NCBI GenBank assembly: GCA_015272325.1
Contig: JACYLU010000015.1
Span: 248,001-312,000 of the forward strand
Source: Synechococcales cyanobacterium C42_A2020_086
Lineage (GTDB): Bacteria; Cyanobacteriota; Cyanobacteriia; Elainellales; Elainellaceae
Length of the DNA: 64,000 nucleotides
Direction: 5' to 3'
Below, one piece after another: positions 44,603 through 45,540 of the stretch. Positions within the stretch are counted from its first letter, which is position 1. Each line of letters starts with the position of its first letter. Under the pieces are notes generated by a model. The model saw only the letters and a program-made list of their open reading frames with translations, made no database searches and was not told the origin of the DNA. A program made the translations under genes and the position numbers.

Positions 44603-45530
44603 GGAAGATAACCTGGCAGATATTGAGGAAATAGGAAGTTAACAGGGATAGCCGTAGCGAGATGGCTAGGAATAGCCCTAGAGGTTCACTCTAGAACGAC
44701 CCCCACTGACACACGAGGCGCATTTCAGGCGAACACAAGCTTCGGTATTTTGGAATGGAGGCAGCAAGCAGCCCATCCCGTTCAGACGCTGTGACTTCAT
44801 GAATCGATCAAGTGATCAGCACTGAAGGGACGTTTGCTCAGCCTGCCATCCTAAAAGAACCGCCTATCAAACAATAGGTAGCCACAATAAGGACCTGTCA
44901 CGGAAGAGAAGTTACCCAACCGCATGGCACTTGTAGTATGGTGCAGGCTAGAAGCCAGTCTGACCGCTGATAAAACAGGAATGCCCCTTTAAGCTACTCG
45001 ACTGATCCGGGAGTCGAGACTCCAATCTGTGCCAGTCTTGCTGTTCTACCTGCTTTGTCACAGCCCTGAAGCCATCTTGAAAGCGTTCGCTTGAAAGCAC
45101 GCCTCAGAGAGCACGAGTTAGAGAGCACTAGATAGTACGTTCAATAGAACCAAAATGGATAGAACCAAATAGAACCAAGTTGTTCAGTTTCTCTAGCCCA
45201 GTTCTATCAGAAAGCTGAGCTAGTGAGTAGAGGATGCAGCCAAAATCCACAGATCCTTGAGAAGGTTTCCTCAGGAGCGGCTGAAAGCAGCTTACCTGCT
45301 GGCTTACCTGCAACACAAGGGGTGAATTTCTCGCTAGTCTAACAGAAGTTTTGGAGAACCGAACTGAACGTAACTATTGTTCAGAGTTGGGGATTCAGAG
45401 TTGGGTTTCGTAGGCGTTCAGAGGAGTCCTTAAAAACCCTTGGGAAGCAGCACGTGCTGCATAGCCCCTCTCGGCTCAAGATCCAGTGACTACTGATGCA
45501 GTATGGGTAGGCTAAGCTACATAGGTTAAG
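44603..45530. other. Long non-coding region rich in short direct repeats
   Basis: About 930 bases between ctp and hetR. No convincing gene. From 45076 on it contains at least six short direct repeats with periods of 10-15 bases, four of them exactly 14 (see the repeat entry). The promoter of ctp must lie at its left end and the hetR transcript ends at its right. Confidence 0.6.
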
Positions 45531-45540
45531 CTACATATCT
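45076..45540. repeat. Cluster of spaced direct repeats with 14-base period
   Basis: Pairs: CTTGAAAGC at 45076 and 45090; AGAGAGCAC at 45106 and 45120; ATAGAACCAA at 45144, 45159 and 45169; GCTTACCTGC at 45290 and 45302; TTCAGAGTTGGG at 45380 and 45394; TAAGCTACATA at 45513 and 45527. The last pair covers the hetR stop codon. They look like successive short tandem duplications that have drifted. Confidence 0.75.

Follow-up and report, generated by a model that had tools for sequence, protein, structure and literature searches.

Replication slippage is the textbook source of tandem repeats. Small tandem duplications are also known from eukaryotes, and Vaughn and Bennetzen are said to have described them in rice in 2014. 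Those produced in eukaryotes at breaks made by a Cas9 nickase are short and head-to-tail and depend largely on Ku80, whose loss strongly reduces them, and, for 3' overhangs, on CST (PMC8355091). Bacteria in general carry close direct repeats, in which two copies lie near each other. Cyanobacteria possess in addition long simple sequence repeats, the heptanucleotide tandem repeats known as STRR. Such heptanucleotide repeats are abundant in non-coding cyanobacterial DNA (PMC4692102).

The stretch analysed here (the window) comprises 64,000 nucleotides of the genome of Synechococcales cyanobacterium C42_A2020_086, designated G000 below. It contains hetR, a gene under tight regulation in other species, followed by a dense group of short direct repeats. 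These repeats and STRR are alike in being abundant in non-coding cyanobacterial DNA, but STRR iterate one 7-base unit, whereas the units found here change from locus to locus and are mostly present in two copies. Like the patch-mediated or paired-nick duplications of eukaryotes, the repeats of G000 are short head-to-tail copies, most of the perfect ones with little end homology; however, the eukaryotic duplications are largely Ku80-dependent, while Ku was found in none of the 14 genomes searched here, and the length range is narrow in G000 (standard deviation 2.3 over offsets 8-18). The comparisons reported below indicate, with high confidence, that the array behind hetR was built up by independent short tandem duplications, mostly of 9-16 bp and head-to-tail, and that these come from a mutational process at work in the non-coding DNA of the whole genome.

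Repeats in the hetR-ctp spacer

The spacer between hetR and ctp, the gene of the adjacent protease, is 928 bp long (Table 1). The original prediction described six families of short direct repeats at positions 45076-45540, four of them at an offset of exactly 14 bases, and both features are present far above chance. When a run was defined as an exact repeat of at least 9 nt at an offset of 5-30, the region contained 8 runs, whereas 1000 dinucleotide shuffles averaged 0.06 and none of them reached 8. Four of the runs have offset 14 (shuffle mean 0.004, shuffle maximum 1). Merging of overlapping runs left six events, with offsets of 14, 14, 15 (a further offset of 10 being merged into it), 12, 14 and 14. 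Tandem Repeats Finder reported 45096-45128 (period 14), 45159-45178 (period 10) and 45508-45537 (period 14).

Table 1. Genes and short direct repeats at the hetR-ctp locus, in window coordinates
Feature	Position	Strand	Remarks
hetR (299 aa)	45531..46430	-	NCBIfam equivalog NF009718, E 1.3e-176
S41 C-terminal processing protease, CtpB-like (best match CtpB)	43271..44602	-	Next gene downstream of hetR
Direct repeat CTTGAAAGC x2, offset 14	45076..45098	.	
Diverged tandem duplication, AGAGAGCAC x2, offset 14	45096..45128	.	Also found by Tandem Repeats Finder
(A)ATAGAACCAA x3, offsets 15 and 10	45143..45178	.	
GCTTACCTGC x2, offset 12	45290..45311	.	
TTCAGAGTTGGG x2, offset 14	45380..45405	.	
TAGGCTAAGCTACA / TAGGTTAAGCTACA + TA, offset 14	45508..45537	.	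hetR stop codon inside; also found by Tandem Repeats Finder

The repeated words vary from family to family, so that, as had been noticed at the outset, the region is not a tandem array of one unit. A binding-site or iteron array, with the same word at a fixed spacing, was rejected on this ground. A heptamer (STRR) origin of the four 14-base units was likewise rejected, the two halves of these units matching at 0, 1, 3 and 1 of 7 bases. The duplication at 45508-45537 places the last two hetR codons, ATG-TAG, within the copied unit and thereby into the spacer; in the 12 relatives compared, the end of HetR is shifted by a few codons at most.

An Rfam search of 44400-47400 at E values up to 1 gave no match, a scan of 44500-45700 for sigma-70 promoters and terminators found none, and the folding of the 121 nt that follow hetR does not surpass that of shuffled sequence (z 0.60). 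A perfect 14-base palindrome, GCAGCACGTGCTGC, occupies 45447-45460, some 70 bases past the hetR stop codon, and is followed on the hetR strand by TTCCCAAGGGTTTTT; together they could be part of a hetR terminator, though the region folds no better than shuffles. Elsewhere in the window, at 49214-49252, the heptamer AGCATTA is repeated 5.6 times, an array of the cyanobacterial heptanucleotide-repeat type. G000 also carries a second, diverged hetR with 77% identity (locus L123, G000:C37:337021-337896).

Short duplications in the spacers of the genome

The genome-wide background was estimated from 1.244 Mb of G000 with 723 spacers amounting to 209.7 kb. Stretches were taken as contiguous picks from contigs and not as random draws; two that overlapped others (L130 and L229) were dropped. 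Sequence not covered by open reading frames of at least 90 aa was taken as spacer, and some spacers therefore contain small genes. Neither spacers shorter than 60 bp nor words with a period of 1-4 were counted, and overlapping runs were merged except in the shuffle test of 45076-45540, the scan of the first 444 kb, the comparison of hetR loci and the count at 51-400 bp.

The first 444 kb contained 160 spacer repeats of offset 5-30 against 6.4 in shuffles, with a sharp hump at 9-15. The full 209.7 kb of spacer contained 315 merged events of offset 8-16, against 5.2 in shuffles, in a single hump centred on 12 (mean 12.3, standard deviation 2.3 over offsets 8-18); the counts at offsets 8 to 17 are 12, 19, 44, 55, 56, 50, 44, 21, 14 and 11. 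Independent short duplications, one of the readings initially proposed, account for the array behind hetR and are of a kind common across the genome. Against a narrow length range stands a tail of 90 events at offsets 17-40 (19.4 in shuffles), and units below 9 are concealed by the requirement of a 9-nt exact match; a count restricted to complete duplications, in 844 kb, gave an excess that extended down to 6-8, with the largest net excess at 10.

Within the 209.7 kb of spacer, 157 events of offset 9-16 are perfect, adjacent head-to-tail copies of the full unit. Among 284 events of offset 10-16, 138 are perfect across the whole unit and the remainder have 1-5 mismatches, which indicates that duplications of several ages exist. 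Rates are similar in convergent (1.37 events per kb), divergent (1.40) and co-directional (1.64) spacers. The units are AT-rich, with 39% GC compared to 48% in spacers, and at 103 sites no link to hairpins was found (GC-matched energy difference -0.33, s.e. 0.35), which leaves hairpin-driven slippage without support. Extrapolating very roughly from 315 events in 1.244 Mb, the 5.93-Mb genome would carry about 1500 duplications.

Within genes, the repeats of G000 favour multiples of 3 (143 against 54). This reading-frame bias was rejected as proof of duplication in genes, since E. coli has the same bias (5 against 1) and relatives are mostly of equal length: of 27 coding repeats with an aligned relative, 18 showed no length difference, 8 other outcomes and 1 an exact insertion, the latter compared with 5 of 1007 control positions.

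Local density and the 14-base period

Within the first 444 kb the hetR spacer is the densest 465-base window, with 8 runs before merging, compared with 5 in the next spacer. On a like-for-like basis the count is five merged events inside the called spacer, the sixth crossing the hetR stop codon. When events were scattered at the genome rate as a Poisson process, 267 of 1000 simulations produced a cluster of at least five at some point of the sample, and 42 of 1000 one of at least six. The events per spacer show slight over-dispersion (1.21, against a simulated 95% range of 0.84-1.19). Elsewhere in the sample 41 of 310 events have offset 14. Four of six at this offset has a probability of 0.0037 if 14 is named beforehand and of about 0.08, summed for four of seven, if any single offset is allowed.

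These simulations and probabilities mean that neither the place nor the period demands a special cause. In its overall interpretation the original prediction was right about independent short duplications instead of a single-unit array. Its alternative of a 14-base spacing needed for something found no support, since offset 14 lies within the genome-wide hump of 9-16, and neither did the importance attached to the 3' region of hetR. The 42 simulations with six events leave room for a mild, weak local excess at the hetR spacer, and together with the dispersion of 1.21 they make weak hotspots possible.

hetR loci of relatives

For comparison 110 hetR loci were used, including that of the window; some species are present in two collections, and loci with identical spacer length and repeats were counted as one species. 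In nine relatives, at the family level and not close strains, the next open reading frame on the same strand matches ctp (L005, L006, L008, L011, L012, L016, L017, L022 and L026), and no hetR-ctp spacer of these nine contains an offset-14 repeat of at least 9 nt. Three have one short repeat (offsets 10, 11 and 10), five have none, and L026 has repeats at offsets 15, 26 and 30. At a tenth locus, L063, the ctp match is more distant, with another open reading frame between.

Seven-base repeat arrays stand directly behind hetR in Scytonema and related loci (L069, L077, L081, L082 and L089), and in this array region L081 and L089 differ from L077 by 21 bases; these arrays are of another kind than the repeats behind hetR in G000. 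In a search for recent duplications, close pairs of hetR loci, together with L146 and its matches in genome G024, yielded 202 insertions of at least 4 nt, 34 of them of length 9-16; among these 34, one is duplication-like and comes from a Nostocales pair.

Variation among lineages

The rate of events of offset 8-16 depends on the lineage, most estimates resting on 12-23 kb of spacer each. The highest values, per kb of spacer, were obtained for G008 (1.97), G023 (1.72) and G000 (1.50), followed by G012 (1.00), G005 (0.96), G025 (0.68), G002 (0.56) and G059 (0.53), and then by G053 (0.35), G009 (0.34), G016 (0.24) and G057 (0.24). The average over 80 hetR loci from named genomes is 0.33-0.34. 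By contrast, genome G003, which belongs to the same family as G000, had no such event in 32.4 kb of spacer (stretches L181-L185 and L226-L228), where about 49 would be expected at the G000 rate. The controls gave none in 16.0 kb of spacer of E. coli K-12, with about 24 expected at that rate, and two in 6.2 kb of the pSymB replicon of S. meliloti (0.32 per kb). The absence of offsets 8-16 from the E. coli and G003 samples sets the repeats described here apart from the close direct repeats of bacteria generally.

The duplications do not come from draft assembly, since the G008 sequence is one single contig. The hump lies at larger offsets in G008 than in G000 (mean 13.1 versus 12.3, p 3e-5). A partial 7-base subperiod, with at least 4 of 7 bases matching between halves, was found in 12 of 40 offset-14 events of G008 and in 4 of 44 of G000, and old heptamer arrays may thus contribute to the offset-14 peak of G008. 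One 15-bp duplication of G008, at L146:19306, looks single-copy in the congener G024, which has a 15-base alignment gap there; this is one case, the other events of that spacer having no clear alignment. A G008 spacer, at L146:10800, contains a 16-base unit repeated nearly five times.

Genes for end joining were compared with these rates. Ku (PF02735) was found in 0 of 14 genomes, and the ATP-dependent ligase family had no match in G000 and was present in G003, G008 and G023. Neither was retained as the cause of the lineage difference, Ku being absent from all 14 and the presence of the ligase not tracking the rate.

Ends of the duplications

In G000 most perfect copies have no end homology beyond chance. 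Of the 157, 51% match by no extra base beyond the unit, 25% by one, 6% by two and 6% by three; a simulation without homology gave 55, 27, 11 and 4%. A minority extends much further: at least 5 extra bases were found in 17 of 157 perfect copies, with about 2 expected, and at least 9 in 10 of 160 perfect duplications of offset 9-17. In G008 at least 4 extra bases were found in 24 of 63 perfect copies, some of which are arrays of more than two copies.

Boundary motifs were sought around perfect copies with at most one extra base, those with one being placed both ways at half weight. Outside the unit of G000, C occurs at position -4 in 88 of 242 weighted ends, 1.53 times the expectation (p about 1e-5 before correction for some 76 tests), and the preference for T at +2, inside the unit, comes close to it in strength. 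In 70 ends added later the C at -4 was weak (21 versus about 17 expected); in G008 it was found in 22 of 64 ends (1.40 times). The dinucleotide TC at -5,-4 outside the unit is enriched 2.2-fold in G000 and 2.75-fold in G008, and in G000 AC is enriched as much as TC. The sequence preference just outside the unit is a lead, and a weak one. Melting of the stretch between two nicks, under which longer units should be richer in AT, was rejected: unit length and GC content correlate at +0.22 (Spearman, p 0.005) in G000 and at -0.05 (p 0.74) in G008.

Discussion

The array behind hetR is real and non-random, and it is close to ordinary for this genome; the duplication process itself is the interesting part. 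A regulatory array, whose 14-bp spacing would position a regulator of hetR or ctp, either an RNA or a protein such as HetR or a nucleoid protein, could draw on four of six offsets equal to 14, on the location between hetR and ctp, on the tight regulation of hetR elsewhere, and on how seldom scatter at the genome rate brings six events together (42 of 1000). It is nevertheless extremely improbable, since the words differ, offset-14 repeats occur in none of the nine relatives of the same gene order, repeats of the same kind are found in every spacer type at similar rates, and neither the Rfam search nor the folding of the 121 nt behind hetR gave a signal. Very improbable, too, is a history of mobile elements, each of which would have entered a 9-16 bp target, come to lie between its two copies and afterwards disappeared. 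Head-to-tail copies do resemble target duplications and there is a weak base preference at the boundaries, but transposon target-site duplications have a fixed length and an element between the copies, whereas the offsets are scattered over 8-17. No more than 16 exact repeats of at least 11 nt stand at a distance of 51-400 bp, where shuffles give 7.0, so that within this range few elements lie between such repeats, and very many precise losses would be needed.

For the process that made the duplications, slippage of the nascent strand back onto short pre-existing repeats, with 9-16 bases copied twice, is the textbook candidate and fits the minority of copies that extend far past the unit (10 of 160 in G000 with at least 9 extra bases, 24 of 63 in G008 with at least 4). 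It may contribute to part of the copies, more in G008. As the general explanation it is unlikely: the extensions in the bulk of G000 match the no-homology expectation, so that simple slippage does not explain them, there is no link to hairpins, and the net excess of complete duplications peaks at 10 and not at the smallest units. The explanation that we prefer, tentatively, begins with one nick in each strand, the two lying 9-16 bp from each other, which would give a staggered break; both overhangs would then be filled in, and rejoining of the filled ends would double the stretch between the nicks. Its geometry and the mostly absent end homology fit. Against it count the finding of Ku in none of the 14 genomes, the lack of a match to the ATP-dependent ligase family in G000, and the failed expectation that longer units be richer in AT. 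Such breaks might be made by excision patches at two lesions on opposite strands, the duplications then being scars of light damage. In bacterial excision repair the 3' incision lies about 4 bonds past the lesion, in agreement with the TC enrichment at -5,-4. This origin is improbable, however, as the signal is weak in the later ends, AC shows an equal enrichment in G000, T at +2 is nearly as strong, and the melting prediction failed.

Under the reading as independent duplications, no function in hetR control is needed to explain the array, which is probably not a hetR device and probably says more about mutation in this cyanobacterium than about hetR control. The long spacer is probably under little constraint, and six duplications survive in it. 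No description of this short-duplication process was found in the PMC literature searched, a scope outside which most subscription papers lie. It is conceivable, if rather doubtful, that some filamentous cyanobacteria have an active, undescribed machinery that makes 9-16 bp duplications largely without homology and without Ku, with a weak flank preference, leaving roughly 1500 scars per genome, and that at least one genome of the same family lacks it. If the process is real and bound to lineages, the responsible gene could be searched for by comparing rate with gene content, with G003 as a natural contrast. It would then leave an insertion signature of its own, one that supplies the spacers of cyanobacteria with new sequence and varies sharply from one relative to another. 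It is also a caution, in genomes of this kind, against taking a spacer for regulatory on the ground that it is rich in repeats and adjoins a well-known regulator.
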